Source of the DNA: Zhouia spongiae
GTDB taxonomy: Bacteria; Bacteroidota; Bacteroidia; Flavobacteriales; Flavobacteriaceae
Direction of reading: 5' to 3'
NCBI RefSeq assembly: GCF_022760175.1
Contig: NZ_CP094326.1
Location: 3,832,804 to 3,896,803 of the forward strand
Length of the DNA: 64,000 nt
How positions within the stretch are numbered: the first letter of the stretch is position 1; each line of letters begins with the position of its first letter. The position numbers and the translations under genes are program-made. This document shows, piece by piece, positions 3,411 through 56,104 of the stretch. Below the pieces are notes generated by a model. It did no database searches. It was not told where the DNA came from and saw only the letters and a list, made by a program, of their open reading frames with translations.

Positions 3411-3631
3411 GACACTATCTGAATTTTGGATAAAGGTACCATCGCGGAAAGTGTGTAAATAAAATTCATCGAGGTTTGACTTTTCTACAATTGATCTTTT
3501 TTTCAAAAGATGATAAAGAGCCGGTTAAGGATTATTCCCCGGTTTCTAATGGGCATAAATCTTTTTGAATTTAATCAGATAATCACAAATGTAAAACTTA
3601 GTTTTCGTCTTCTAACTTCCGTCTTCAACTC

Positions 3632-3916
3632 CTACTCATCCCTTAAGCTTTCTACCGGATTTCGTGTTGCTGCCCTGTATGTTTGCCAGCTTACCGTAAA
3701 TAAGGCTATGACCAGAGTACATAATCCTGCCGAAGCAAATACCCACCAGCTTAAAGCCGTTTTATGGGCAAAATTCTCCAGCCATCTACTCATAGCGTAA
3801 TAACTTATCGGACAAGCAATTACAAAAGCTATCCCTACCCATTTTACAAAGTCTTTGTTAAGCAGTAACATGATCTCGGTTATGGCAGCGCCGTTTACCT
3901 TGCGGATACCGATCTC
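3632..3916 (-). repeat. Homogenised FtsX C-terminal segment, copy 1 of 3
   Basis: The final ~285 nt of this permease gene match the ends of the permease genes at 6308 and 9686 much better than the remaining gene bodies do. The protein ends from EIGIRKVNGA to NPVESLRDE are almost identical, and the match with copy 2 continues a little past the stop codon (actcctactcatcccttaag). This suggests recent gene conversion between paralogues. Confidence 0.7.
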
Positions 3917-6073
3917 TTTGGTTTTACTCTCGGTCATAAACAAACTGATAGCCACCAGTCCTAAAAGTGAAATAAAGAGGACAATAACAGTAAAGGCTTC
4001 CAATGATTTTTTTAGTTGGAGTTCCTTTTCATAAACACTTTCATAATCCACTTTATGAAGGATATTGTCTTTTGTATTATTATTGTAGGTCTCTTCTTTT
4101 TTTATGTCCAATAGCAATTGGATCAATTCTTCTTTATGGTTTTCATCGTAAGATACCTGCAAAAACTGCATAGGAAAATTATCAAATCCGTAGCCTATGA
4201 TCACAGGATAAACAGGACTGTATAGCGGGGTATTATAAATGTTCTTAAAGACCCCAACGATTATGGCATTGTTTATATTTGTAGAAGTAAAAACGGTGCC
4301 TAAAGGTTTTTTAAGATTCGCTCTTTTAACAAATTCTTCATTTACAATTACTTCAATCAATTCATCCGTTTTCTCCGGTGTCCAACCAACAACTTGAAAT
4401 GTATTTGAAATTATAGGTTTTCTGGTCGACTTAATGTTGCGTCCTTGTATCAGTTTCAGATTATATGTCTTCAGATAATTTGTATCTCCTCTTACCATCA
4501 TTCCTTTGATTTGATTTTTAGAGGATCTTATTTCAATATCTTCCAGATTGAATTGTGATCTAAAAAGGATGTCCCCAACGGCCACATCATTAATATAACT
4601 TTTAGCCTTTAATTCATTCATCAGCACCTCCCCGTCAACTCCGTAAGGACTAACAGTGACCACATTTTTATCAAATCCCAAATCTTTGGTCTCTATATAT
4701 TGTACTTGTTTTCTTATTAAAAATATGGAGCTCATCAAGCCTATTAACAATACTAACTGAAATCCTATAATCACCTTTTTGGAAAACCATGAACTTCCCC
4801 ATTTTCCATTTTCATTCTTTCTGTTGACAAAAATTGCTTTGTATGACATTGCAAACTCCAGAGTTCCTATAACCAATCCTACTACAAATATGATCAGCAG
4901 ATAAGAAACAATTAGCATTTTGTCATTATGCCATGAAAACTCATAATCGGTTTTGATGAGCTTATTGAAGACACTATTAAGGAAAGGATATGTAAGCAGG
5001 GTCAGAATAAAGCAAATCAGTATGTTGAATACCGATTCAAACAACAACAGGACATATATATTTAGCTTGGATATTCCCAGGTTCCGGCGGATCCTAAACT
5101 CGCCAGTCCGGTTTAAACTAAGTCCTAAATTCATTAGCACGTAATTAAAGACTGCCAACAATAATGTTAATGAGCCTATTAGTATCAGAACACCTATAAA
5201 CTGTTTCGATCCCTTTTTTTTCTGATTGGTGATATCAAAAGAATCAAAATAGATATTGTCCAAACGTTGTAACTCATACATGAAATTATTTTCATCAACC
5301 TCTTCAACTCCTCCATTTTTTGCTTTTGTATAAAGGGTCTCTCCTATTTTATTGGCGAAATCCTTTACTTTTTCAACATGCGGCAAATGCAGGTATAGGT
5401 CGGCAATACCAATTCTCCACCCAACTTCTTCTCGCGTATCTGTATAGCTTATAAGTGGATGGGATTTAATGTTTAAAAAGACGTCTGACTGTAGTGTAGC
5501 GTTCTTTGGAATATTCTCTATAATACCGGCCACCAGATATTCTTTGTCTTGAGAACTACTATTGTTATAAGCTTTAAGTACCTTACCGAGAGCTTCCCCG
5601 TTTTTAAACAGTTCCCGGGCTTTTCTTTGCGAAAGGATAATACTGTTTTCATCATCTTTAAATGTTTGCAAATTCCCTTCTATAAGTTTAAAGTCAAATA
5701 GATCAAAGAAAGAGGGCTCTACGTACATTATTTCCTGTTCTGTCTTTTCTCCGTTAAGCACCAGACTTATAGGAGCGTTGTTAGTGAGAACACGGGCATA
5801 ATCATTTACTTCCGGCAATTTATCTTTTAAATACCGGCCCATAGGGGGTGGGGTCATTTCGCTCCTGTTACTGCTTGAAGGCCGGGTTTGCAATACCCTG
5901 TAGATTTCTTTTCTTTTACTGTGAAACGTATCTACACTCAACTCTTTATAAACGAAGTGATAAATGTGGAAAGACGCTACGATCGCCACACTCATCCCCA
6001 GTATGGAAACAGCATAGATTTTATAATTCCTTGTAATTCTTCGCAGGTATTCCCTTAATATTTTGAATAGCAT
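3632..6073 (-). CDS. FtsX/MacB-type ABC transporter permease (permease 3)
   Basis: Inner-membrane permease of the MacB/FtsX superfamily, 813 residues. An N-terminal helix (about 20-42), a large MacB-like periplasmic domain, a first FtsX helix set at about 290-460, a second periplasmic domain, and a second FtsX set in the last 120 residues ending in NPVESLRDE. Typical double-FtsX length for Bacteroidota. Last gene of the minus-strand operon TolC-HlyD-permease-ATPase-permease-permease. Its last 95 codons are nearly the same as those of the other two permeases, while the rest is diverged. Substrate unknown; such proteins work by mechanotransmission rather than substrate passage. Confidence 0.9.
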   Translation of the reverse strand: MLFKILREYLRRITRNYKIYAVSILGMSVAIVASFHIYHFVYKELSVDTFHSKRKEIYRVLQTRPSSSNRSEMTPPPMGRYLKDKLPEVNDYARVLTNNAPISLVLNGEKTEQEIMYVEPSFFDLFDFKLIEGNLQTFKDDENSIILSQRKARELFKNGEALGKVLKAYNNSSSQDKEYLVAGIIENIPKNATLQSDVFLNIKSHPLISYTDTREEVGWRIGIADLYLHLPHVEKVKDFANKIGETLYTKAKNGGVEEVDENNFMYELQRLDNIYFDSFDITNQKKKGSKQFIGVLILIGSLTLLLAVFNYVLMNLGLSLNRTGEFRIRRNLGISKLNIYVLLLFESVFNILICFILTLLTYPFLNSVFNKLIKTDYEFSWHNDKMLIVSYLLIIFVVGLVIGTLEFAMSYKAIFVNRKNENGKWGSSWFSKKVIIGFQLVLLIGLMSSIFLIRKQVQYIETKDLGFDKNVVTVSPYGVDGEVLMNELKAKSYINDVAVGDILFRSQFNLEDIEIRSSKNQIKGMMVRGDTNYLKTYNLKLIQGRNIKSTRKPIISNTFQVVGWTPEKTDELIEVIVNEEFVKRANLKKPLGTVFTSTNINNAIIVGVFKNIYNTPLYSPVYPVIIGYGFDNFPMQFLQVSYDENHKEELIQLLLDIKKEETYNNNTKDNILHKVDYESVYEKELQLKKSLEAFTVIVLFISLLGLVAISLFMTESKTKEIGIRKVNGAAITEIMLLLNKDFVKWVGIAFVIACPISYYAMSRWLENFAHKTALSWWVFASAGLCTLVIALFTVSWQTYRAATRNPVESLRDE

Positions 6074-6184
6074 TTTTAGTTGTTGGTTTATATATGTATT
6101 TCTTCTTATTCCCCCTTATCTTCCCTAAGGGGAGAAGATGTTTCTTTTTCTTTGGTCAAAAGACAAATTCCGAATACCATTTTT

Positions 6185-6306
6185 AACTCGTAATTCCTCT
6201 ATCCACTTCTGACTCTCGTTTCGTAAATCGTCAAATACCAAAAAGCAAATCCCAAATTCCAAGCTCATAGTTCTGAACCTTTAACTTCTGCCTTCCGACT
6301 TCAGCT
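6185..6306 (-). repeat. Degenerate GAAGT-type short-period repeat, intergenic
   Basis: Read on the minus strand this spacer is built from degenerate 6-8-nt units such as GAAGTCGGAAGGCAGAAGTT, then AACTATGAGCTTGGAATTTGGGA-like units. The same composition, in the same order, fills 8770-8885 and a shorter piece at about 3600-3632, always just downstream of a permease or before the next gene in this operon. It holds no gene. Confidence 0.5.
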
Positions 6307-6307
6307 C

Positions 6308-6592
6308 CTACTCATCCCTTAAGCTTTCTACCGGATTTCGTGTTGCTGCCCTGTAAGTCTGCCAGCTTACCGTTAGTAAGGCTATGACCAGGGTACATAA
6401 TCCTGCCAAAGCAAATACCCACCAGCTTAAACCTGTTTTATAGGCAAAGTTCTCCAGCCATTCAATCATAGCGTAATAAGCTATCGGGCAAGCAATCACA
6501 AAAGCTATCCCTACCCACTTTATAAAATCCTTGTTAAGCATGACCATGATCTCGTTTATCGTTGCGCCGTTTACCTTGCGGATACCGATCTC
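6308..6592 (-). repeat. Homogenised FtsX C-terminal segment, copy 2 of 3
   Basis: The last ~95 codons are near-identical to copies 1 (3632) and 3 (9686). The identity with copy 1 continues into the first bases after the stop codon. Confidence 0.7.
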
Positions 6593-8695
6593 TTTGGTAC
6601 GTTGTTCCGATTTAAAAAGCGACATTCCTATTAATCCCAAAATAGTTATAAAAACAGCAATAACCGCTAACGCTAAAATTGATCTTTGCAATATTCTATC
6701 CTTACTATAAATATCATTTATCAACGTTTCATAATAATCAGGATCGAATACGACATTTTCCTGACCGCGAACCATTGTATTAACTCTTCGTTTATCTTTT
6801 ATGACGTTTACTTCCTCTTTACTCAATAAATCATTTATCAATTCGACAGCTTCTTTTCTTTTGCCTTTTTCATATTTAATTATCACTCCTCCATATTCGG
6901 AATAACTTTGCGGTATTTTGAAAAACAATGGTCGTAGTGTATTATAGAGCGATTCAAATTTAAAATCATCAACTACGCCGATTATGGTGCCCTGACTTGT
7001 TTCTTTATTTATAGGATTGTCGGTAATTCCCAAAAATTTGATGGCAGGTCCATTAACAATGATATTTTCTCCATTAGTGTCCGTTGTAAATGTTTTAGAA
7101 AAATTACGGCCTGCTTTTAATTTAATGTTATACAAAGGAATATAATTAACATCAACTTCAAATCTCTCCATCGACACCTGTTTTGAAGGCGACTTATTTA
7201 ATGCTACACTATACCTGGCAGAACCATCATGCAATGGTAAAATAGTTCCCTCCGAAACATTTTTAATTACTGGATATTTTCTAATCTCTTCTTTAAAATG
7301 GGATGCATCCCAATTAAGTTTTTTTATCATCAAGGTATTATCTACCGAAAAACCTTTACCTGAATTAATCATGAAATCCAGTTGTTTATAATAAACCAAT
7401 GAAAATGCTAACAAAATAACGACAATAACTAATTGAATAAACATCGTGCTATTTTTCAACAGAAAAGACTTCCTCTTTTTTAATTTACTTTCCTTAATAA
7501 TTTCAATAGCATTGAACCTGATCAAATAGTAATTAAAATAAAGAGCCGCTAATATTGTAACCATCAAAACGATCGCAATTGCATAACAAAAAAAGGCATA
7601 ATTAATATTCCCACTTAAAATTAAATTGCTATCTGAAAAATCATTAAAAAAGGGCAATACAAGTTTCATTAACAATACAGCAGTAACAGCAGAAATAATA
7701 CTTATGGTCAAGGATTCTAACAAAAATATTTTTAATACTCCTGAAGCCCTCAATCCATTAATCTTTCGAACAGCAAACTCCTTCATTCTTCGTTTGATAA
7801 TTGCTGTATATAACAGTAAAAAATTCGTTATTGAAATTATCAATATTAAAATGCCAATAACCGCATAAATAATGACTCGTTTTAAAGAGCCCGAAGACGG
7901 TCCTTCAATATTTTCGGAAAACAAATGAACATCCACAAGTGGCTGTAGGTCATAAGTTTCATCAAAAATTTTAGGTTGAGCTTTATAAACCTTATTCATT
8001 TTTTCTACTACCGTTTCAATTGCAGCCCTCTTATCAATCAGAATATAAGCTTGTCCTCTTTTGCTTCCATAATTTTGTGGCTCCATCATGCTTTTATAGG
8101 CAAAAGAATTACTGTTTGGAACTATCAGGTCAGGAGCAATTGTCGATTTCCTAGGAAAATCTTCATAAACTGCCCCTATTGTAAATTCTTGCTTTCTATC
8201 ATGTGTTTCTATTGTCAAAACTTCACCTACAACCGATGCCTTTTTAAAATGCTTTAACGCAAATTGTTTTGAAACAAGAACAGTTTTTGGATTTTCTTTG
8301 AGTATGTTTAAATTACCCGAAATTCTATTGAATGTAAAAACATCCACAATTTCAGGATCGGCATAAAACCATCTTTCCGGATCTTTTGTTCCGGCAATGC
8401 TAAAAAACCCTTCAAAATAAGTTGCCGATTGTATGATTTCCGGAACCTGATCTTGAAAAACTTGCACGATTTTCGGGTTGTTTATTGATTGTAATCCGTC
8501 TTGAGTAGTTTTATTTAGCACCCTAAATACATTCTCATGCCTTTTATGGTATAAGTCGTAGCCTGTTTCTTCAGTAACATACAACAAGGCAATAAAAGCT
8601 ACACATAGTCCAATACTCAAACCTGTTAGGTTTAAAAAACTGTAAGGACGTTGGGTTATAAATGCCCTGTATATTATTTTTAAGTTGTACAACAT
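6308..8695 (-). CDS. FtsX/MacB-type ABC transporter permease (permease 2)
   Basis: Paralogue of the neighbouring permeases, 795 residues. N-terminal helix at about 19-40 (FLNLTGLSIGLCVAFIALLYV), MacB-like periplasmic domain, FtsX helices at about 270-440, second periplasmic domain, and a C-terminal FtsX block with RTKEIGIRKVNGATINEI. It ends in the same NPVESLRDE tail. It is separated from permease 3 by 234 nt of repeat-like spacer and from the ATPase by 192 nt, long gaps for an operon, so internal promoters are possible. The partner ATPase is probably the gene at 8888. Confidence 0.9.
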   Translation of the reverse strand: MLYNLKIIYRAFITQRPYSFLNLTGLSIGLCVAFIALLYVTEETGYDLYHKRHENVFRVLNKTTQDGLQSINNPKIVQVFQDQVPEIIQSATYFEGFFSIAGTKDPERWFYADPEIVDVFTFNRISGNLNILKENPKTVLVSKQFALKHFKKASVVGEVLTIETHDRKQEFTIGAVYEDFPRKSTIAPDLIVPNSNSFAYKSMMEPQNYGSKRGQAYILIDKRAAIETVVEKMNKVYKAQPKIFDETYDLQPLVDVHLFSENIEGPSSGSLKRVIIYAVIGILILIISITNFLLLYTAIIKRRMKEFAVRKINGLRASGVLKIFLLESLTISIISAVTAVLLMKLVLPFFNDFSDSNLILSGNINYAFFCYAIAIVLMVTILAALYFNYYLIRFNAIEIIKESKLKKRKSFLLKNSTMFIQLVIVVILLAFSLVYYKQLDFMINSGKGFSVDNTLMIKKLNWDASHFKEEIRKYPVIKNVSEGTILPLHDGSARYSVALNKSPSKQVSMERFEVDVNYIPLYNIKLKAGRNFSKTFTTDTNGENIIVNGPAIKFLGITDNPINKETSQGTIIGVVDDFKFESLYNTLRPLFFKIPQSYSEYGGVIIKYEKGKRKEAVELINDLLSKEEVNVIKDKRRVNTMVRGQENVVFDPDYYETLINDIYSKDRILQRSILALAVIAVFITILGLIGMSLFKSEQRTKEIGIRKVNGATINEIMVMLNKDFIKWVGIAFVIACPIAYYAMIEWLENFAYKTGLSWWVFALAGLCTLVIALLTVSWQTYRAATRNPVESLRDE

Positions 8696-8769
8696 AGTTT
8701 ATTTAACTCCTTAATCTTTTTTTATTACACTGTGGCATCAAAAACAACCTTCTTGATTTGGGCTGCATT

Positions 8770-8885
8770 CTAACTACTGGCTTTTGACTCTCGGCTTTCA
8801 AATCGTGAGTCGTCAATTGTCAAGTTCCAAAAATCAAATTCCAATTCATAACTTTTAACTTCCGACTTCTGACTTCAAACTTCAC
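8770..8885 (-). repeat. Degenerate GAAGT-type short-period repeat, intergenic
   Basis: Second copy of the short-period spacer (minus strand GAAGTCAGAAGTCGGAAGTT and following AAAAGTTATGAATTGGAATT-type units). Same unit order as at 6185-6306. Confidence 0.5.
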
Positions 8886-8887
8886 AT

Positions 8888-9580
8888 CTATTCCTCTTCT
8901 ATCAACTCGTGAATACGCTCTGCTACTATCTGTCCGTCAAAAAGGTTTACTACCCGATGTGCATATTGCGAATCCCTGTCGGAATGTGTTACCATCACTA
9001 TGGTAGTTCCTTCCTGGTTAAGCTCGGTAAGTAAACTCATCACTTCCCTCCCGTTCTTAGAATCCAGATTACCTGTAGGCTCATCGGCCAATATGAGTTT
9101 GGGATTTGCTACGACAGCCCTGGCTATAGCTACACGTTGTTGCTGACCTCCCGATAACTGTTGTGGAAAATGATTTAGCCGATGTCCCATCTTCATCCGT
9201 TCCAGTACTTCTTTTACGCGACGTTTACGTTCTTTGACGCTTACTTTAAGGTATACCAGCGGTAATTCGACATTTTCAAAAACGGTTAATTCATCGATCA
9301 GGTTAAAACTCTGAAAAACAAAACCGATATTTCCTTTTCGCTTTTGGGTACGCCGGCTCTCTTTTAATTTTCCGAGCTCCTCCCCAGCAAATTTGTAACT
9401 CCCTTTACTCGGGTTATCGAGCATTCCGATAATATTGAGCAAGGTCGATTTCCCACAGCCGGAAGGTCCCATAATGGCTACAAATTCGCCTTGTTTCACA
9501 TGCAGGTTCACTTCGTGCAGAGCACGGGTTTCCACTTCCTCTGTCCTGAACACTTTCGATAGGTTTTCTGTTCTTATCAT
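8888..9580 (-). CDS. ABC transporter ATP-binding protein (MacB/LolD type)
   Basis: Cytoplasmic ATPase that powers the FtsX-type permeases encoded around it; 230 residues, the normal size for a stand-alone LolD/MacB nucleotide-binding subunit. Walker A GPSGCGKST at 38-46, Q-loop Gln90, signature LSGGQ at 142-146, Walker B LILADE at 162-167, H-loop His199. Only one ATPase is present for three permeases, so it probably serves all of them. The C-terminal IHELIEEE tail is short and acidic. Confidence 0.96.
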   Translation of the reverse strand: MIRTENLSKVFRTEEVETRALHEVNLHVKQGEFVAIMGPSGCGKSTLLNIIGMLDNPSKGSYKFAGEELGKLKESRRTQKRKGNIGFVFQSFNLIDELTVFENVELPLVYLKVSVKERKRRVKEVLERMKMGHRLNHFPQQLSGGQQQRVAIARAVVANPKLILADEPTGNLDSKNGREVMSLLTELNQEGTTIVMVTHSDRDSQYAHRVVNLFDGQIVAERIHELIEEE

Positions 9581-9685
9581 GGTTTTAAAGTTTCGTTGTT
9601 TCTTTTTTTTTATATTTTACAAATGAATTCTATTTCAATAGATTTGGTTGTCACCATATCAGATTCGGCTACAAACCCCATAAGC

Positions 9686-9970
9686 CTATTCATCGCGCAA
9701 GCTTTCTACCGGATTCTGCGTTGCCGCCCTGTAGGTCTGCCAGCTTACTGTAACCAAAGCTATGATTAGGGTAAACAGTCCGGCGAGGGCAAACACCCAC
9801 CAGCTTAAAGCCGTTCTATAGGCAAAATTCTCCAGCCATCCGCGCATAGCGTAGTAGGCTACGGGACATGCAATAATAAAGGCTATCCCCACCCATTTTA
9901 TAAAATCCTTATTAAGCATGACCAAAATATCGGTTACCGTAGCGCCATTTACTTTTCTTACTCCGATCTC
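9686..9970 (-). repeat. Homogenised FtsX C-terminal segment, copy 3 of 3
   Basis: Third copy of the conserved 3' segment. It is somewhat more diverged than copies 1 and 2, and identity stops at the stop codon. Confidence 0.6.
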
Positions 9971-12094
9971 TTTAAACCGCCGTTGTGTATCGTACAAAGC
10001 AATAGTAAACAACCCTATGGCAGAGATCAACAATGCAATAATGGTAAACACGATATAGATGGTACTCAGCCGCTTTTCTTTTTGGTATAAAGCTGCGATA
10101 TCGTCGCTTAAAAAGGAGTAACTAAAGGTCTGATTGGGATTTATTTCTTTAAATAAATCTTCTATAAGCTGAATTCCTTCCCCGGTCCGTCCTTCATGGA
10201 ATTTTATAAAATACTCTGCTTCAGGATCCTCAAAATATACCATAATTAAAGGTTCAGGTCTAGCTGAAAGATGTTCATAATTAAAGTCTTTAACAACCCC
10301 TATTATTTCATAGCTGTCGTCATCGTCTTTAGCCCAAATTCTATTATTAATTCTCGTTTTGGTTATATCTTTAATATTCCAGTTTTTTAATGCTGCTTCG
10401 TTTATCACAATTTTATGACCACGTTGCTCATCAACCCCGGTTTCAAAAAAACGCCCTGCAATAAGTTTAAAACCAAACATATCTTTATATCCCGGTGATA
10501 CAACAAGGCTGTTTTGGGTTTCATATTCATAAGTTTCTCCCTTAGGTTTCCAATCAATTGGAAAAACATCAATAGGAGAATTTCCCTGCGTAACATTTTC
10601 TATACACGAAAAAGAAGCTAACTGGTTGTTAATGTAACCAGGGATTTTCATTAGTTTCTCCCACTCCTGCATTCTTCGCTTCTGGCTCCAGTTCTTACTT
10701 TCAAAATTAAAAGGGGGCTCATAGAATAACTTTACTTTCATAATCCTGTCTTTATGGAATCCCAAATCTTTATTGAGCATTAGCCCTAACTGATTATTCA
10801 CCACAAGTCCTGATATCAATAAAATGAGAGCCAGGCTGTACTGCAAAATAATAGTAACCTGACGTCCGCTTAGTTTGGAAGAAACCGCTGTATTCTGTTT
10901 GATATTTTTTACAGTAGAAAATCTGTTAATAACCCATGCAGGATAAATCATCCCAAAAAAAGTTATGATCAACAATACGGTCAAATTGAGTAAAAACACC
11001 TGTATAAAAGGGGGAGCTAAAGCAACTCCTGCAAAAGCATTAAAATGGGGTAGAATAAGATTGTAACCAATCGTAATAAGTAATCCGGCTATAAGTATTA
11101 AAGCAAAAACCTCCACCAATTTTTGTAAAACGATGTGCTTTTTTAAAGCACCATTCACCTTAGAAATGGCTATGCTCTTAAGTATGGCATTGGTATTGAC
11201 TATTTGTAAATTGGAGTAATTGAGTATCGAAACAAAAAATATCACAAGTATAATAACAAGTAATACCTGTATGTTCTTTTTATTTCCCGATGCGAATGGC
11301 GTATATTTTTTCATGGCACTTAACTCATTGCTGAAATATATGTCATCTAAACCTACAATAGACGTAATGCTTTCTGTTAACTGCGGATAATAGCTAGAAA
11401 CTTTATTATTAGATCCTTTTATCTTTTCTTCAAAATCTGCTTTGTTAAAATTAGGACTTGCTTTAAAAAAAGGCACGCTAATCCTACCATAGCCATGATC
11501 CAGATGCTGATAGGGGATTATATAATCAAAAGTCATAGAACTGTTTGACGGAATTTTGACTACCCCTTGCACAGTATGGAGCCCCTGATACATCCTTACT
11601 TCAAAATCTACCATTTTCCCCATCGGATCTTCATCGCCAAAAAGTTGCTTGCTGAATTCTTCACTTATGATAATGGATTGTTTATCATTCAACACTGTTT
11701 TAGGATCGCCATACAACAACTTAAAATCAAAAACCTGAAAAAAGCTACTATCCACTACCATTCCTGTCGGGGTATAAGTATTGTCTTTATACTTTATTTT
11801 GGTATCGTTCTCTATAAAACATCTTATGGCCACACTACTCTCAATTTCAGGATATTTATCCGCTTCAAATTTAAAAGGGGACAGCCATTCGCTTTTTGGA
11901 GATTGCTTCATCACAACTGTATAAATATCTTTCTCCCGTTTATGAAAATCATCCATGGTCAATTCATTATACACATACGAAAAGAGCAATGATATGCACA
12001 ATGCGCCCAGACATAGTGTAGCCAGGCTACCGATAAAAATGACCTTGTTAGACCTAAAGTTCCTGAAAGCAAATTTTATATAATGTTTTAGCAT
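9686..12094 (-). CDS. FtsX/MacB-type ABC transporter permease (permease 1)
   Basis: Inner-membrane double-FtsX permease, 802 residues. N-terminal helix at about 17-39, periplasmic MacB-like domain, FtsX helices around 275-440, second periplasmic domain, C-terminal FtsX block with RRFKEIGVRKVNGATVTDI and the shared NPVESLRDE tail. It lies between the adaptor (34 nt upstream) and the ATPase (105 nt downstream). With the adaptor and TolC it could form a MacAB-TolC-like tripartite pump. The presence of three paralogous permeases suggests heteromeric or alternative complexes; the substrate is not visible. Confidence 0.9.
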   Translation of the reverse strand: MLKHYIKFAFRNFRSNKVIFIGSLATLCLGALCISLLFSYVYNELTMDDFHKREKDIYTVVMKQSPKSEWLSPFKFEADKYPEIESSVAIRCFIENDTKIKYKDNTYTPTGMVVDSSFFQVFDFKLLYGDPKTVLNDKQSIIISEEFSKQLFGDEDPMGKMVDFEVRMYQGLHTVQGVVKIPSNSSMTFDYIIPYQHLDHGYGRISVPFFKASPNFNKADFEEKIKGSNNKVSSYYPQLTESITSIVGLDDIYFSNELSAMKKYTPFASGNKKNIQVLLVIILVIFFVSILNYSNLQIVNTNAILKSIAISKVNGALKKHIVLQKLVEVFALILIAGLLITIGYNLILPHFNAFAGVALAPPFIQVFLLNLTVLLIITFFGMIYPAWVINRFSTVKNIKQNTAVSSKLSGRQVTIILQYSLALILLISGLVVNNQLGLMLNKDLGFHKDRIMKVKLFYEPPFNFESKNWSQKRRMQEWEKLMKIPGYINNQLASFSCIENVTQGNSPIDVFPIDWKPKGETYEYETQNSLVVSPGYKDMFGFKLIAGRFFETGVDEQRGHKIVINEAALKNWNIKDITKTRINNRIWAKDDDDSYEIIGVVKDFNYEHLSARPEPLIMVYFEDPEAEYFIKFHEGRTGEGIQLIEDLFKEINPNQTFSYSFLSDDIAALYQKEKRLSTIYIVFTIIALLISAIGLFTIALYDTQRRFKEIGVRKVNGATVTDILVMLNKDFIKWVGIAFIIACPVAYYAMRGWLENFAYRTALSWWVFALAGLFTLIIALVTVSWQTYRAATQNPVESLRDE

Positions 12095-19406: not shown

Positions 19407-20882
19407 CTACCCTGCCTTTTTACGCATAGTAAATGAAATAACTACAGCTATGGACATCAAAACTCCGGCAACAATGAATGTTGTACTCATTCCCTTTGAA
19501 ATATCTTGTCTCCGAGCTATTTCAAAATCGCTTGTGCCGACAGCAAAAGCAAATAAAGCTCCCAGTACCGAAGCACCTGTAACAAGACCTAAATTACGTG
19601 ACAAGTTAAGCACGCCTGATATAACACCTCGCTGGTCTTTATTTGCTCCCATCATAACAGATGTATTATTGGCCGCCTGAAAAAGTTGATAACCCGGTGT
19701 TAAGATTGCTAATGCGATTATATATCCAATAACTCCATACTTATTTGGCAATATTGATAATGTGAACGCCCCCAGTACCATTACCAGCAGGCCCGTTATT
19801 ACAGTTTCTGTTGCTCCAAAACGGTCAACAATACGACCAGATGGAATTCCTGTAAGTGCAGAAACCATCGGTCCGACCGACATAACCATCCCAACAAAAG
19901 TTTCATTAAGTCCTAATGCTAACGATAGATAAAATGGTCCGACAACCAATGTTGCCATCATTACAGCAGAAACAAAAGAGTTCACAATCAAACCAGCACT
20001 TAAGTTTCTGTCTGTAAATGCCGATAATTTTATTAAAGGGGATTTCGCTTTAGCTTGAGAATATATAAATGCACCAGTACCCATAACAGCAAGTAAAAGC
20101 AATAGAACATTTACCAAATTAAAACTTCCTTTACCTATCGTCATTCCCAGGGTATAAAAAGCAAGCGTTACTGCTAATAAGAACGTTCCTGTCCAATCAA
20201 TTTCTTTACTCGATAACCGAAACCTGAATGCCCTGCTTCGTGCCTCGAAACCAAAGTATTTCTTATGAGAATACCTCGTGGGTTTACCCCGGAGCAGATT
20301 CCTTTCATGTGTCACTCTCGCTTTAGCCACCGGCAGGTACTTATATGTTAAGAACATATTTAAAACACCAGGCGGAACCATCATCAGGAAGATAGTTCTC
20401 CACCCGAAACTTTCTATTAAAATGCCTCCAAGTGTCGGGCCCAACGCTGTCCCTATTGCCGACATTGTACCCAACATTCCCATAGCGCTACCCATTTTTT
20501 TCTCTGAAATGGCTTCACGAAGAAAAGCCATAGTAAGCGCTATTAAAATAGCTGCACCCACCCCTTGGAAAGAACGTGCTAAGATCAACATCCATAATGC
20601 CGGGGCAATACCACAGGTAAAGGATGCCAGAGTGTATACAATAAGACCAATCATCAGCATACGCTGCAAACCCAAAATATCACCCAGCCTTCCTATGCTT
20701 ACAATCACAACAGTAATCGATAAAAGATAGGAGATCACGACCCATTGTACGGATTGAAATGTGGTAGAAAAAACTTCGGTTAAGGTTGGTAAAGCAACAT
20801 TGGCAATGCTGACACCCAAGGAGGCCATTAAAGTGGAAATCGAAAGACTTGTGAGTATCCATGTGTTTGGTACTTTTTTCAT
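19407..20882 (-). CDS. MFS drug/proton antiporter, 14-TM DHA2 type
   Basis: 491 residues with about 14 hydrophobic helices, the count of the EmrB/QacA (DHA2) group. Motif A-like IGRLGDILGLQRML after TM2, a motif C-like GPTLGGILIESFGWRTIFLM region around TM5, and a repeat of motif A in TM8-9 (GRIVDRFGATE). Predicted inner-membrane exporter of hydrophobic toxins. It starts 2 nt after the DUF2938 gene. A central cytoplasmic insertion rich in Arg/Lys/His (about residues 185-225) is longer than usual. Confidence 0.92.
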   Translation of the reverse strand: MKKVPNTWILTSLSISTLMASLGVSIANVALPTLTEVFSTTFQSVQWVVISYLLSITVVIVSIGRLGDILGLQRMLMIGLIVYTLASFTCGIAPALWMLILARSFQGVGAAILIALTMAFLREAISEKKMGSAMGMLGTMSAIGTALGPTLGGILIESFGWRTIFLMMVPPGVLNMFLTYKYLPVAKARVTHERNLLRGKPTRYSHKKYFGFEARSRAFRFRLSSKEIDWTGTFLLAVTLAFYTLGMTIGKGSFNLVNVLLLLLAVMGTGAFIYSQAKAKSPLIKLSAFTDRNLSAGLIVNSFVSAVMMATLVVGPFYLSLALGLNETFVGMVMSVGPMVSALTGIPSGRIVDRFGATETVITGLLVMVLGAFTLSILPNKYGVIGYIIALAILTPGYQLFQAANNTSVMMGANKDQRGVISGVLNLSRNLGLVTGASVLGALFAFAVGTSDFEIARRQDISKGMSTTFIVAGVLMSIAVVISFTMRKKAG

Positions 20883-22387: not shown

Positions 22388-22533
22388 CATCTTTACTCGA
22401 TAATAGGGCTTTATTCCGTATAGGTATCGGGAGCTACGATGCTTGCCCCTGCGAAATATTCCTAACGGAATTTCAAAGGGCTTCCCTTTGTAAAATGTTT
22501 TGCCTATGCGCGATGGTTCCAGAGTAGTTTACT
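22388..22533 (-). repeat. Dispersed hairpin repeat, copy A (internally deleted)
   Basis: Fills the 349-nt space 22329-22677. Read on the minus strand it begins AGTAAACTAC, lacks the left head and the GGTCT hairpin, then carries the CGCAT-GGCAAAACATTT block and the central hairpin GAAATTCC-GTTA-GGAATATTTC flanked by GCCCT/AGGGGC arms, and ends near TATCGAGTAAA. Same orientation as copy B. The remainder of the gap holds nothing I recognise. Confidence 0.75.
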
Positions 22534-22677
22534 TAAAACTCCCATTTTCTTTTATGCCGGTTGACGGGCCGGAGCTTTATTTATCCATTTCATTTATCAT
22601 ATAATACAATGCCTTAACCAGGCAGTCTCATATGATGTTTTAACCAAAATATCGACAAGCAAGGTCTCGTTTTCATT

Positions 22678-24162: not shown

Positions 24163-24358
24163 AATGGTATGTTTTTACTCGATTATCGAGATTTAAATGC
24201 TCCGACGCTTGTCCTTATGAAATATTCCTGAACGGAATTTCATAGGACTTACGTCGAAATGTTTTGCCATGCGCCAGCTGGCTCCATCGCTAAAAAGGTC
24301 TACCAGACCTTTTCTTTACGCTTGGCCCTCTCGTGGACTTGCCCCAAGATCGTTTACT
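24163..24358 (-). repeat. Dispersed hairpin repeat, copy B (most complete)
   Basis: Read on the minus strand: AGTAAAC end, GC-rich head (GGGGCAAGTCCACGAG), hairpin AAAAGGTCTGGTAGACCTTTTT, palindrome GCCAGCTGGC, block GCATGGCAAAACATTT, central hairpin GTCCTATGAAATTCC-GTTCA-GGAATATTTCATAAGGAC (24248-24211), and closing palindrome CTCGATAATCGAG (24190-24178). It lies between two minus-strand genes. Direct AGTAAA-type sequence occurs at both ends. Confidence 0.85.
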
Positions 24359-24369
24359 GGTTGTCCGGG

Positions 24370-30903: not shown

Positions 30904-30967
30904 AGAAATAGCAAACCTATTTCTGACAGATTAGAATGAATATACGTGCTATTTAAAAAAATATCCG
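30904..30967 (-). promoter_or_regulatory. Twin promoter segment P1
   Basis: 64 bp that match segment P2 (35941-36004) at 58 positions. Read toward the gene it holds TAGGTTTG, an exact TAnnTTTG -7 box (30919-30912), embedded in the inverted repeat AAATAG-5 nt-CTATTT (30906-30922). The predicted start is about 50 nt before the first ATG of the operon. An operator over the -7 box would suit a repressor or a bound regulator. Confidence 0.55.
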
Positions 30968-31018
30968 TTTCAATATTATTTTAGTATTCGCATAATTGTT
31001 TTATATAGGATTTCAAAT

Positions 31019-35940: not shown

Positions 35941-36004
35941 AGAAATAGCGAACCTATTTATGACAGATTAGAATGAATATGTGTGCCGTTTAAAAAAATA
36001 TCCG
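35941..36004 (-). promoter_or_regulatory. Twin promoter segment P2
   Basis: 64 bp matching P1 (30904-30967) at 58 positions, including the AAATAG-5 nt-CTATTT inverted repeat (35943-35959) with a -7-like TAGGTTCG. Similarity stops sharply at both ends. It lies upstream of the lipoprotein operon and 17 nt from the end of the LytTR regulator gene. Confidence 0.55.
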
Positions 36005-36020
36005 CTAAAGTAAAAATTGC

Positions 36021-36758
36021 TTATTCGTTATTCCAGCTTAAAAATGTACTTAAGAACAGCTCTTTTTTTCGGGAAGAAACCGGTACTTTTTTCCCGTTTT
36101 TTAAATGAATCACACCGGCTTTGTCATACTTATCTATAAATTTTAAGTTAACCATATACGATTGATGCGGACGTATAAAACTGGCTTTGGAAAGACGCTC
36201 TTCAAATTCTTTTAAGGTTTTTGAAACTACGTATTTTTTGTTGCCATTACAGTAAAAAGTAGTATAGCCCTTGTCTGATTCGCAAAAAAGTAATTCGTTT
36301 AAATCAATCACCTGAAAACTATCATGCAACGATAAAATTAACTTTGAATCTTCATTATTCCATACTTGTCTGGTAATTTGTACCTGTTCTCTTTGCTGCA
36401 TTAAGGATAGCTGTGTTACTTTTTGAAGTGCTATTTGCAGTTCATCCATATCAACAGGCTTTAGCAAATAATCGATCGCACCAATTTTTAAAGCACGCAA
36501 GGCATGTTCTTCATAAGCGGTTATAAAGATCACTTTAAAATGAAGGTTTTCGGTTTGTTCTAAAAAATCAAATCCGGTACCATCGGTAAGGTTGATATCC
36601 AAAAAAACCAACTCAGGGTTACAAGCATTGGCAACAACAACCGCATCCTTTACAGATTCGCATTCGCCCAGTACCGTTACTTCAGTATCTACCAGTTGCA
36701 GCAGGTTACGCAACCCTTTTCTAATGTACTCCTTATCTTCAATTATTAATGTCTTCAC
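36021..36758 (-). CDS. LytTR-family response regulator
   Basis: 245 residues: receiver domain 1-118 with Asp8, phospho-acceptor Asp54 (LVFLDINL) and Lys100 (YLLKPVD), and a LytTR DNA-binding domain at about 140-240 (LNELLFCESDKGYTTFYCNGNKKYVVSKTLKEFEERL; FIRPHQSYMVNLKFI). The ATG overlaps the end of the kinase gene by 20 nt, so the two are co-translated. The twin promoter segments P1/P2 nearby are candidate targets. Confidence 0.95.
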   Translation of the reverse strand: MKTLIIEDKEYIRKGLRNLLQLVDTEVTVLGECESVKDAVVVANACNPELVFLDINLTDGTGFDFLEQTENLHFKVIFITAYEEHALRALKIGAIDYLLKPVDMDELQIALQKVTQLSLMQQREQVQITRQVWNNEDSKLILSLHDSFQVIDLNELLFCESDKGYTTFYCNGNKKYVVSKTLKEFEERLSKASFIRPHQSYMVNLKFIDKYDKAGVIHLKNGKKVPVSSRKKELFLSTFLSWNNE

Positions 36759-38946: not shown

Positions 38947-39041
38947 ACAATTTATGTAGATTTTTGGTACTGCTAATCTACAGTTTTTTGCATTAGGTTA
39001 GAACCATTTCTATCAATTATAGAGTTTAGGGGAATTAGAAA
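38947..39041. other. Upstream region of the kinase gene, no feature recognised
   Basis: Together with 39273-39546 this makes a 600-nt space without genes. It should hold the promoter of the kinase-regulator pair on the minus strand, but I see no convincing -7 box. The rest of the space is repeat copy C and one copy of a 59-bp direct repeat. Confidence 0.4.
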
Positions 39042-39272
39042 AGTAAACTACCTCGGGGCAAGCCCACGAGAGGGCCTAGCGTAAAGAAAAGGTCTGGCAG
39101 ACCTTTTTAGCAATGGAGCCAGCTGGTGCATGGCAAAACATTTCAACGCAAGCCCTGTAAAATTCCGTTCAGGAGGATTTCACTAGGGCAAGTCCTATGA
39201 AATTCCGTCAAGACTATTTCACAAGGACAAGCGTCGGAGCATTTAAATCTCGATGATCGAGTAAACATCATT
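39042..39272 (+). repeat. Dispersed hairpin repeat, copy C (expanded)
   Basis: Opposite orientation to copy B and close to it over its whole length: AGTAAACTACCTCGGGGC head, AAAAGGTCTGGCAGACCTTT hairpin, GCCAGCTGGT, GCATGGCAAAACATTT, then the central hairpin module twice in tandem (39149-39188 and 39189-39227, about 40 bp each), GCGTCGGAGCATTTAAAT, and closing palindrome CTCGATGATCGAG (39249-39261). Confidence 0.85.
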
Positions 39273-39358
39273 GGTATAAAACAGACCAACAAATGTATGC
39301 AACTCCCGGCCATAGCTTACAACCTTAAAAGTACCTGAAGGATATAGAGAAACACCTA

Positions 39359-39417
39359 AAAAGTGGAGTATCAAGCCTGCAAAGTATTTGTTTTTGTTTA
39401 AAAGTAACTATACAACA
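39359..39417 (+). repeat. 59-bp direct repeat, left copy
   Basis: Begins AAAAGTGGAGTATCAAGCCT and ends AAAAGTAACTATACAACA. It matches 41610-41668 with essentially one mismatch (A/G at the 28th base). The two copies bracket about 2.2 kb holding the DoxX, broken Crp and 169-residue genes. Confidence 0.8.
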
Positions 39418-41236: not shown

Positions 41237-41797
41237 TTATTAAATGTACCACAACAGTCTCGTATATGAAAAGCAGAGATTCTCACTCTAGCTTTTCAGT
41301 TTTACATTAACCATAAAGTTATGAAATTCATTTTCGTTTAGACACTTAGACCTCTGTTTTTTACATACCATGTGCCTGTTACACAAGTTAGCGAAAACCG
41401 ACACGGGATTGTTAATATCTTTTCATCAGATACTTACATTGGTAGTATACAAGTCAAAAACAATATCAGGAGAAACCATTCAATCAATTTCAGTTAAGCG
41501 AGCGCGTACCGAAAGGCAATTTTTACCGTCGTTTAAAAGAGGTAACAAACTTAGCGTGTCTATACCACTCACACATAATAGAGTACTCAGCCATAAAACG
41601 TACTACCATAAAAGTGGAGTATCAAGCCTGCAAAGTGTTTGTTTTTGTTTAAAAGTAACTATACAACAAATTTCACGACAACTCATTTATATTGTTTATA
41701 ATTTAAACAGAAACATAACTAATATGAACTATAGTTAGAAGAATGATAGGAGAACGGGATTGATCAAAAGCCTATCACCATAAGATTGATTCACATT
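41237..41797. other. 561-nt space without a gene
   Basis: Holds the right copy of the 59-bp direct repeat. A reading frame of 122 codons at 41370-41738 on the plus strand has no recognisable product and a poor start; I do not call it a gene. Confidence 0.5.
41610..41668 (+). repeat. 59-bp direct repeat, right copy
   Basis: Same orientation as 39359-39417, almost identical. The sequence on the far side of each copy differs, so the duplication is limited to this segment. Confidence 0.8.
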
Positions 41798-42094: not shown

Positions 42095-43737
42095 CTTCTA
42101 TTTCTATTTAGTCACGTTAAATTTCCCACATATCTGTAAAAATTATGGTATGTTTTATCATACCGTAACAATTATTTTATTATATTTGTTGGGATTATAT
42201 ATTTTTGCGATTCTTCTGAAAGAAAAATATTAGAAGCAATTGCTTAGAGTCTCGAACTGAAAACTGGTAATTTTTATGGAAACGAGATGATAAGTAACTT
42301 TGCTCACGACCCGCGGCGTGGGCTCTGTTATCGTTTCCAAGGTATACCAGTACCTCAGTTCGGTAATTTGAGTTCCACGCCTATTTGTTTTTGGACACCA
42401 GGCTTTACTCATCTTTTTCTTGGCATAGTTTTCTTGATTTTCATGGGAGTTTTGCAACTATCGGGCAAACTGCCACGCTTTGTACCAAAGCTCGCAGAGA
42501 CGTTATATTAAAATAAGGAATTTAAATTATGAGTTATGAATTTTTATATTAAAGGCCTTTTCCTTTTTTCCATTGGCCAAAAAAAGAAAGTGCGAAACTT
42601 GTTTCAGACATAAAAACATTTGGGTTAGTGATTGCAAGGGTGGCAATATGGTTTGTTGGTAAAACCTCACAACAGGATTGCATATCCGGCTAACGTTTAT
42701 TTTAATTATTAGAAATAGTATGAAACACCAACCAAAACTCACTATGACCAGAGTATACGAAATACAGCTTACTGTTTTTTATATACTATTTAAAAAGAAA
42801 CCGAAGAACCCGGTTTAAGGTTCTATTTTGTTACAGGAGTGACGTTAGACTTTTAGGAAGGAGCTGTTTCCCATGATAAGATTCCTTTATTTCTTATCAG
42901 GTTGAGCATTGCTAAAATGGAAATATATTTTCATTGAAAGTGCAATGCGGAGCAAGTCCACCCCACCGGTACTTAAAAATTGTATAGCAGTTCTTTTTGG
43001 AAATGGTATATCTCCTGCAACAACTTACTACGCATTGTACACAGTATCCGGCTGTGAAGAATAATTGAAGCTTATAGATTTTGGTATAGCCTTTCTTTTT
43101 TATTCATGTTTTTGTTGAATGCTTTTTAAAGGAATTCATGATATGCTTCGCAATTCATTGATGAAAAAAGAATAGATGATAAAATATTTGAGTTAGTTGA
43201 TTGGGTAGTTATGTGACCTGTAGCCGGCTATAGTGATATACCGTACTACAGGTCTTTACCCTAAAAAGGGAACATCATACTGGCAGAGCATTTTTGGCCA
43301 GTACAGGTAGATTGCCATACTTCGACTATCGCTCAATACAGGCCAGGCTTTTACAAAGCCTTCACAAGGACGTTGACTTTTATTGTTATGGGAAATTAAA
43401 CTGCCATGAGCTGTGGCACGCGAGAATCCCATTTTCGATAAATCCGTTAAAATCAAACGTTGTTTAAGCCTGTTCCAAAAAACAGGTGAGTTCGTTTGAT
43501 TTAGAATTTATGAATCTAGTGAATCGTCGAACAACCAGGGCAGGCGTTTTTTCGTTCTTTTCTGGGCTATACAATTGCGAAGCACATCATGAGATCCGAT
43601 AAAAAACACCGAATAAAAAAAGAATAATTAATAAGCCGAATTGATATTCGGTTAAAAAGGCCCTCTGAATATTGTGGAAGGTATCGCAGAAGGCCATAGA
43701 TCAATTAAAACCAAGTTTAATTAAACCTTTCAAAATT
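42095..43737. other. 1.6-kb region without recognisable genes
   Basis: Short frames exist on both strands (e.g. 42230-42457 minus, 42287-42511 plus, 43256-43456 minus) but none has a recognised product, a good start or neighbours in an operon. The base composition is close to coding DNA in places (42290-42500, 43200-43460), so decayed genes are possible. The promoter of the SusC operon must lie at the right end. Confidence 0.45.
42143..42168. promoter_or_regulatory. Palindromic operator upstream of the XRE gene
   Basis: GGTATG-TTTTAT-CATACC is a perfect 6-bp inverted repeat (42147-42164), extended by TTA/TAA pairs on both sides with one mismatch. The position, 50-75 nt before the XRE start, suits an autoregulatory site. 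Confidence 0.5.
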
Positions 43738-53282: not shown

Positions 53283-53348
53283 ATTCGGATGGGGTGTTAT
53301 AATTGTTTTTAATGTTTGATTTTAATTAGTTTGAAACCTCGTTTAATG

Positions 53349-53547
53349 ATCAACTACCTCAGAGAGTGCCGAGCGTAAAAAAAAGATATAGCGTACCTTT
53401 TTAGCGATAGAGCCAGCTTTCACATGGGCAAAGCATTTCGCCGCAAGCCCCATGAAATTCCGTTAGGAATATTTCGCAAGGGTAAGCATCGTAAATCCCG
53501 GTACGATATCGGGATTAAATTTCGATTGTCGAATAAACACCATCATT
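53349..53547 (+). repeat. Dispersed hairpin repeat, copy D (diverged)
   Basis: Same orientation as copy C. Head CTACCTCAGAG, decayed second hairpin, AGCCAGCTTTCACATGGGCA, central hairpin GCCCCATGAAATTCC-GTTA-GGAATATTTCGCAAGGG, an extra palindrome TCCCGGTACGATATCGGGA, and closing palindrome TTCGATTGTCGAA (53521-53533). Occupies most of the 427-nt space 53156-53582, along with the operator at 53241. Confidence 0.75.
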
Positions 53548-56003: not shown

Positions 56004-56008
56004 ATAAT

Positions 56009-56028
56009 CCTCGGGGCAAGCCCCGAGG
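56009..56028. repeat. 20-bp perfect hairpin, isolated head of the dispersed repeat
   Basis: CCTCGGGGC-AA-GCCCCGAGG has perfect 9-bp arms and starts 5 nt after the stop codon of the PLP-GNAT gene. It is the fully symmetric form of the heads of copies B and C. It could also act as a transcription end, though no T-run follows. Confidence 0.8.
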
Positions 56029-56104
56029 CATTAATCTTTAGAATAAACTTAACTGAATTTCATTTTTATATCAAACCACATACTCTTGTTCTACACCTTG
56101 ATTC

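Follow-up and report, generated by a model that had tools for sequence, protein, structure and literature searches.

Hairpin-rich repeats of Zhouia spongiae as probable copies of a short non-autonomous mobile DNA element of Flavobacteriaceae chromosomes

Introduction

Several described systems of short bacterial repeats rely on the ability of DNA to fold into hairpins. REP/BIME sequences, which are associated with RAYT proteins, are intergenic chromosomal hairpins of 20-40 nt with a GTAG tag, located mostly downstream of genes and thought to be moved in trans. The insertion sequences of the IS200/IS605 group, described in part in PMC6006769, lack terminal inverted repeats, carry subterminal hairpins at both ends and insert 3' of a fixed short target similar to a short sequence at their right end. 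Other palindromes have no dedicated transposase: according to PMC3733652, the CGTC-tagged palindromes of Bacteroidetes, reported also from Gramella forsetii, are single hairpins with stems of 8-9 bp, loops of 4-5 nt and a CGTC tag, and Rickettsia palindromic elements (RPE) are frequently inserted in frame in coding sequences. Hairpins can also be targets themselves, as IS elements insert into REP hairpins, with the hairpin axis as the insertion point (PMC1525189).

The repeats described here lie in a stretch of 64,000 nt of the Zhouia spongiae chromosome, hereafter the window. We favour the reading, which we hold to be somewhat better than even, that each is a copy of a mobile, non-autonomous DNA element, about 100 nt long, which has spread over the chromosomes of Flavobacteriaceae. 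In the open literature that was searched, no title or abstract start describes this hairpin repeat family.

The repeat family in the window and in the genome

A covariance model, R1, was built from 16 full-length single-palindrome copies of the Z. spongiae genome. The original prediction had listed four dispersed copies, A to D, and all of them were recovered at their places with slightly shifted ends, with R1 E-values spanning 1.5e-10 to 1.5e-60 (Table 1). Between its left end and a GAGTAAA right end, copy B has hairpin 1, a core module, a hairpin 2 that holds a single nested palindrome, and hairpin 3. On the + strand its palindrome is flanked by CTTG (24208-24211) and CTTA (24248-24251), so that the flanks on the element strand are CAAG and TAAG. 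In copies A and D a further small palindrome (TCCCGGTACGATATCGGGA in D) precedes hairpin 3; copy A also holds one nested palindrome, and hairpin 3 of copy D is TTCGA/TCGAA.

A 20-nt stretch at 56009-56028, which had been taken for an isolated head, does match the repeat; it proved to belong to the left part of an additional copy, which is truncated, with GTAAA at 56000-56004 and a covariance model R2 score of 24.8 bits (E 0.044; 55958-56047). The TAA of this GTAAA is the stop codon of an 806-aa ORF (53583-56003). The same ORF combines an aminotransferase class I/II domain with a GNAT-type domain. A sixth copy at 20205-20305 (-), absent from the predicted list, scores 45.7 bits with R2 (E 4.5e-6; 20205-20303) and 28.7 bits with R1 (E 1.1e-6); it is located inside an MFS transporter ORF, and the statement that all copies are intergenic does not extend to it.

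Table 1. Features of the repeat family and of the ORF that holds one copy in frame.
Feature	Position	Strand	Evidence or note
Basic element (~100 nt), old copy lying in frame in MFS transporter ORF	20205-20305	-	R1, R2
DHA2-type MFS transporter ORF with in-frame copy	19407-20882	-	TIGR00711, E 2.3e-52, 178 bits, below the model's curated cut-off of 230
Copy A, internally deleted	22410-22535	-	R1 42.4 bits, E 1.5e-10
Copy B, long form	24174-24360	-	R1 220.5 bits, E 1.5e-60
Nested 36-nt palindrome, hairpin 2 of copy B	24212-24247	-	sequence
Copy C, long form, two nested palindromes	39040-39265	+	R1 205.7 bits
Copy C, first nested palindrome	39153-39188	+	between CAAG 39149-39152 and CAAG 39189-39192
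Copy C, second nested palindrome	39193-39227	+	between CAAG 39189-39192 and CAAG 39228-39231
Copy D, diverged long form, one nested palindrome	53346-53537	+	R1 103.7 bits
Truncated copy: GTAAA left end, hairpin 1, CATT	56000-56032	+	sequence; R2 weak
Loci of other genera with palindromes in the loops of hairpins 1 and 2 or just 5' of hairpin 3			L137, L140, L149, L172, L183, L199, L200

Other repeats were observed in the same window. Three ORFs of about 800 aa at 3609-12094 (-) have a common 300-nt 3' repeat (89% and 74% identical to the first), and the first of them matches MacB_PCD and FtsX. Two direct repeats are present, one of 87 nt (82% identical, 30904-30990 and 35941-36027) and one of 64 nt (95% identical, 39354-39417 and 41605-41668) just downstream of copy C, together with an inverted repeat whose 47-nt arms (43109-43155 and 43573-43619) are 79% complementary and 417 nt apart.

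The covariance-model search of the genome that had been proposed along with the prediction returned 127 R1 matches at E <=0.01, 86 of them at >=50 bits. A pattern for the left end matched the genome 69 times, and its reversed control never did. When these left-end matches are pooled with those of R1 and R2, 139 genomic places result, the weakest of which may be chance matches. The repeats do form a family, one with more members than originally reported.

A basic element of about 100 nt

The repeats had been described as one element of fixed order. A fixed element of about 200 nt was abandoned when a 24-nt right end led to elements of about 100 nt in other genera, and the fixed order gave way to a ~100-nt element with other palindromes nested inside. 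Specifically, the basic unit is composed of GTAAACTACC, hairpin 1 (loop CAAG), a spacer, hairpin 2 (loop CAAG), hairpin 3 and TAAA, with the consensus GTAAACTACCTCGGGGCAAGCCCACGAGGCATT-spacer-TTTCGAGGCAAGCCTCGGAGCATTTAAATCTCGATTATCGAGTAAA. Of 118 right ends, 101 could be paired with a left end by a loose criterion of <=7 edits in 20, applied without a control run; the element lengths have their mode at 99-100 nt, and ten short forms measure 52-64 nt. Hairpin 1 occurs in the Z. spongiae genome as GGG/CCC, GTG/CAC and GAG/CTC subfamilies.

We read copies B, C and D, which measure 187-226 nt, as having developed later from this basic element. In particular, the GGTCT/GCCAGCTGGC block would have been acquired later, given that both the Z. 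spongiae genome and others contain forms that lack it. In a genome of another genus of the same family (G025; L086, 917-983, 12526-12594 and 13406-13474), the core module (AAAATGTCTGGTAGACATTTTT...) occurs by itself, immediately 5' of several paralogous genes.

Mobility and insertion target

The element is mobile. Its T subfamily (GGTGCAAGCAC) has 17 copies, 15 of which are exactly 100 nt long and 8 of these 15 identical, and the copies lie in unrelated flanks (seven by BLAST, the rest by eye). All 17 right ends have their own left end close by, preceded by A in 14 cases and by C in three. The identical copies suggest that the family has been active recently.

The insertion target is indicated by one empty site and one tandem pair. 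In Leeuwenhoekiella marinoflava (L149) the empty site reads TTATGAGGTAAA/GTTGC, while the filled site of L. polynyae (L209) reads TTATGGATAAA/CTACTT...GAGTAAA/GTTGC; in other words, the empty site has one GTAAA, and the filled one has ATAAA and GTAAA at its two sides. This is the one clean interspecies empty site. In the tandem element pair (L282), a single GTAAA is common to both elements. Together they point to insertion just 3' of GTAAA, the exact cut points being deduced. Only TAAA is common to both flanks, which fits a TAAA duplication as well as an element that ends in TAAA.

In Maribacter, L153 is without the element present in L157, with a spacer too diverged for the bases to be placed. 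A second candidate empty site, L146, was dropped, as decayed element remnants, from which hairpin 1 and the spacer are lost, are found in both Leeuwenhoekiella relatives searched. Likewise L280, considered as an unpaired left end, turned out to be a short decayed element. An autonomous form, whose two ends would enclose a gene, was not found among the own-genome loci looked at, which cover part of the 69 left ends.

Palindromes nested in the hairpin loops

The central GAAATTCC/GGAATATTTC hairpin, previously thought to be a fixed part of the repeat, is instead a loop insertion, present and absent within one subfamily. Two T copies (L307 and L314) are 39 nt longer exactly at the CAAG of hairpin 2 than the 15 copies without the insertion, and the 39-nt gain consists of a 35-nt palindrome plus a second CAAG. 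Copies B, C and D are read in the same way: one or two palindromes of 35-36 nt would have entered the CAAG loop of their hairpin 2, so that CAAG now stands on either side. In the own-genome loci examined, 36 distinct CAAG-palindrome-CAAG contexts were counted, 30 of them with a unit length of 35, and forms of about 140 nt (L296-L299) carry a like insertion without the core module.

In other genera, different and mostly GC-rich palindromes occupy the loops of hairpins 1 and 2 or a position just 5' of hairpin 3 (Table 1). At an orthologous Salegentibacter site, one species (L107) has no hairpin 2 insert, and two others (L163 and L218) carry different inserts. GC-rich CCTGCCTG...CAGGCAGG-like palindromes recur at three places of the element in other genera (L199, L140, L200 and others) and probably form a separate palindrome family.

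Spread among Flavobacteriaceae

When 395 genomes sampled from the order were searched with at most one mismatch, 8 contained the right end, Z. spongiae included, all of its own family; there are 51 copies in Z. spongiae, 27 and 14 in the next two genomes, and 0 with the reversed control. R2 matched 8 of 60 relatives, again counting Z. spongiae. A BLAST search of the same number of genomes with one 184-nt copy (L017) matched 12, own genome included, and the other 11 show only pieces of <=64 nt, among them the extreme 3' end. Moreover, a scan of named genomes with TTTAAATCTCGATTATCGAGTAAA gave at least 116 stretches. The 116 listed all come from genera or groups that we take to be Flavobacteriaceae; the genera among these listed matches include Maribacter, Aquimarina, Salegentibacter, Leeuwenhoekiella, Sinomicrobium, Galbibacter and Zobellia. 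A stretch containing a single element was matched 31 and 42 times in two Leeuwenhoekiella genomes (those of L133 and L195). No match was obtained for one element copy searched against plasmids and phages, nor for the exact right end in viral contigs.

Structure and covariation

The paired arm changes on which selection on structure (DNA or RNA) had been proposed, GTCCT/AGGAC versus GCCCT/AGGGC and CTCGA/TCGAG versus TTCGA/TCGAA, are present in the sequence; covariation supports the proposal between genera and is not significant within the genome. In a cross-genus alignment (A4) of 76 elements in 75 distinct rows, hairpins 1 and 2 covary with a score of 0.178 against 0.109 (sd 0.007) in shuffles, none of 500 being as high, in a test inflated by the relatedness of the elements. 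When the structure is slid along the alignment the score is 0.026-0.080. Cells changed on both sides number 53 versus 19.1 in shuffles, and pairs changed on both sides show no excess (10 versus 8.3; 91 of 500 as high). For example, pair 72-84, which lies inside hairpin 2, appears as GC in 43 elements, CG in 17, GU in 7 and AU in 2. Hairpin 3 is invariant in A4 because the scan required it; RNAalifold by itself, run on the cross-genus alignment, predicted hairpin 3 and neither hairpin 1 nor 2. Among 16 long copies of the genome, the covariation score is not clearly above shuffles (32 of 500 as high), and the same holds for pairs changed on both sides (210 of 500).

Folding of one 184-nt copy gave z values of -3.8 (sense) and -4.0 (antisense) as RNA, and of -4.2 and -4.5 for its two strands as DNA. 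Half-compensated pairs read on the sense strand are G.T in 58 cases versus A.C in 80 (binomial P 0.07), and 17 versus 22 in a second count, that is, no sense-strand G·U preference appears among them. A sense RNA is therefore not favoured and hairpins at the DNA level fit better; the evidence for an RNA role of the element is weak.

Placement relative to genes

By an ORF test, 140 of the 143 R2 matches in named loci are intergenic, two are antisense and one is sense, the last probably a chance motif. Of the 124 copies with an assignable neighbour on each side, 87 follow a gene on the same strand, at a median of 30 nt; 54 are in tandem sense versus 22 antisense (P 3e-4), and 33 are convergent versus 15 divergent. 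The same position is taken by 25 of 36 long copies in the Z. spongiae genome and by just 10 of the 17 T copies. In 14 of 101 cases an upstream ORF of >=80 codons ends at a stop codon provided by the element itself, against about 0.3 expected per position under even spacing (58 over 176 positions). These closures are no proof of native stops, because a gene cut short by the insertion would also end there. The stop codon in GTAAA can explain many of the copies directly behind genes in sense, and a target of this kind could account for their gathering there without selection by the host.

The in-frame copy of the window corresponds to codons about 193-226 of the MFS ORF. Because only Z. spongiae itself matched this gene at E 1e-30 among 38 genomes, solved structures were used for comparison. 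The relatives in the PDB are EmrB and EfpA, whose alignments break off at query residues 180-189 and start again at 221-228, so that the codons of the element are passed over; beyond them the alignment is weak for EmrB (16 bits, E 0.038) and not significant for EfpA.

Possible mechanism and alternative explanations

The proposed moving unit would extend from CTACC, just after a host GTAAA, through the three hairpins to its own terminal TAAA, and would insert directly 3' of GTAAA, with one TAAA on each side and no other target duplication seen. The CAAG loops of hairpins 1 and 2 would in turn be insertion sites for smaller palindromes; in Z. spongiae, a 35-36 nt palindrome plus CAAG would have entered hairpin 2 once or twice to give the long copies seen in the window. 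Identical copies at dispersed places, the two fixed ends, the GTAAA junction and CAAG nesting are observed, and by analogy with IS200/IS605 and REP/RAYT the movement would occur in trans, probably by an enzyme that acts on single-stranded hairpin DNA.

A Y1/RAYT transposase elsewhere in the genome, for which the original prediction suggested looking, was found by neither of two models: PF01797 (Y1) has no match at E 0.001 in the one-contig genome, and the best NF047646 (RAYT) hit is 11 bits (E 0.7). PF01797 hits are absent from four of the eight R2-positive genomes among 60, Z. spongiae included (G000, G028, G029 and G034). Insertion into the lagging strand would predict a chromosomal strand bias. 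In the best two-arc split, made without origin and terminus positions, 87 of 125 copies agree in strand, and 298 of 500 permutations are as high. At the right end of the T subfamily there is no TTTA directly 5' of the last hairpin, and therefore guide pairing of the IS608 style was not seen. The IS200 of one genome (G007, three equal-scoring Y1 genes) was considered as the autonomous form and rejected, as the one region read fully (L092) has other ends. In Aquimarina sp. RZ0 (L138), the DNA that separates the copy at 4494-4588 from that at 4975-5076 is similar to two separate segments of L095, the G007 locus carrying a Y1 gene, and is possibly an IS200 remnant.

These results bear on several alternatives. 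The repeats could belong to a REP/RAYT system whose RAYT was lost from the genome or sits on an unsequenced replicon; the hairpins, the REP-like placement and an NF047646 match of 89.5 bits in the same genus (G001) speak for this. We consider it unlikely, since the identical copies suggest recent activity and yet the one-contig genome shows no Y1/RAYT, no hairpin carries a GTAG tag, and the RAYT locus of G001 (L080) is without an R1 match. What remains of the REP/BIME-like or non-autonomous character first assigned to the repeats is a dispersed, hairpin-rich, non-autonomous element with compensatory stem changes and a REP-like lifestyle; the single element of fixed order is not supported. A structured RNA at gene 3' ends (terminator, stabiliser or processing site), selected by the host and with dispersal as a secondary feature, would agree with the RNA fold z of -3.8 and with the position behind same-strand genes (87 of 124; tandem 54 versus 22). 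The orientation bias, however, could be produced by the GTAAA target and is small in the recent T subfamily (10 of 17), while RNA wobble pairs are not preferred (G.T 58 versus A.C 80, and 17 versus 22), a terminator scan was negative in copies B and C, and the element of L146 lacks hairpin 1 and spacer in two relatives. Rfam has no match over the copies: at gathering scores the window yields two tRNAs only, and up to E 1 five own-genome loci give two weak hits, both outside the element. A host-selected RNA thus appears quite improbable. A classical MITE moved by a DDE transposase would likewise be short, multi-copy and without ORF, with TAAA on both sides, but it is very improbable here: there are no terminal inverted repeats (left GTAAACTACCTCGG, right in reverse TTTACTCGATAATCGAG or TTTATTGGCACCGCC), and the only common sequence, TAAA, is also the element's constant right end.

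For the nested palindromes, template switching of replication at hairpins, rather than transposition, has some appeal, as the units are palindromic, stand in series, have tips in few alleles and in one case are inverted (L286). It is nevertheless doubtful, given that one and the same unit, with the same ends, is placed precisely at CAAG in more than one subfamily of the element in this genome and that unrelated palindromes occupy the same loops in other genera. An equally tentative extension of our preferred reading, a non-autonomous mobile element, is that hairpin transposons exist in two layers, the ~100-nt element going to GTAAA and smaller palindromes to its CAAG loops, with a putative non-Y1 enzyme and both layers ending in a copy of their own target. 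If this were true, elements would grow by loop insertion in nested-doll fashion, and long structured bacterial repeats could arise stepwise. One genome displays forms that can be lined up, from the basic element to one with a single nested palindrome, then to one that also has the core module and finally to one with two nested palindromes, and the nested step has defined empty and filled states within it. Apparent recent activity, presence in many genera and the lack of a visible transposase here make a search for a new mobilising enzyme feasible.

Comparison with known systems

With REP/BIME sequences and their RAYT the element shares hairpins, chromosomal and intergenic location, a position mostly downstream of genes and presumed movement in trans; its extragenic, high-copy nature is reflected in 140 of 143 intergenic matches, 87 of 124 copies behind a same-strand gene and 127 genomic matches. 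It differs in being about 100 nt long, with three hairpins and two ends (GTAAAC at the left) instead of one hairpin, and in having neither a GTAG tag nor a RAYT found in the genome. The CGTC-tagged palindromes (PMC3733652) are similar in being palindromic, Bacteroidetes-borne and without a dedicated transposase, whereas the ends and architecture of the hairpin element are other than theirs. The one copy in frame in a protein gene (20205-20303) recalls the RPE (PMC3733652), although frequent in-frame insertion was not found: one match of 143 in the named loci, probably by chance.

As in the IS200/IS605 group, described in part in PMC6006769, terminal inverted repeats are lacking, hairpins lie near both ends, and insertion would take place 3' of a fixed short target resembling the right end; the difference is that no Y1 gene or orientation bias was found and that guide pairing was not seen in the T subfamily. 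"IS200/IS605-like" is therefore a description of the apparent way of working and not of membership. Finally, in analogy with the IS elements that insert into REP hairpins (PMC1525189), the hairpin axis is the insertion target, with the difference that the insert here is itself a palindrome of 35-36 nt and not an IS.
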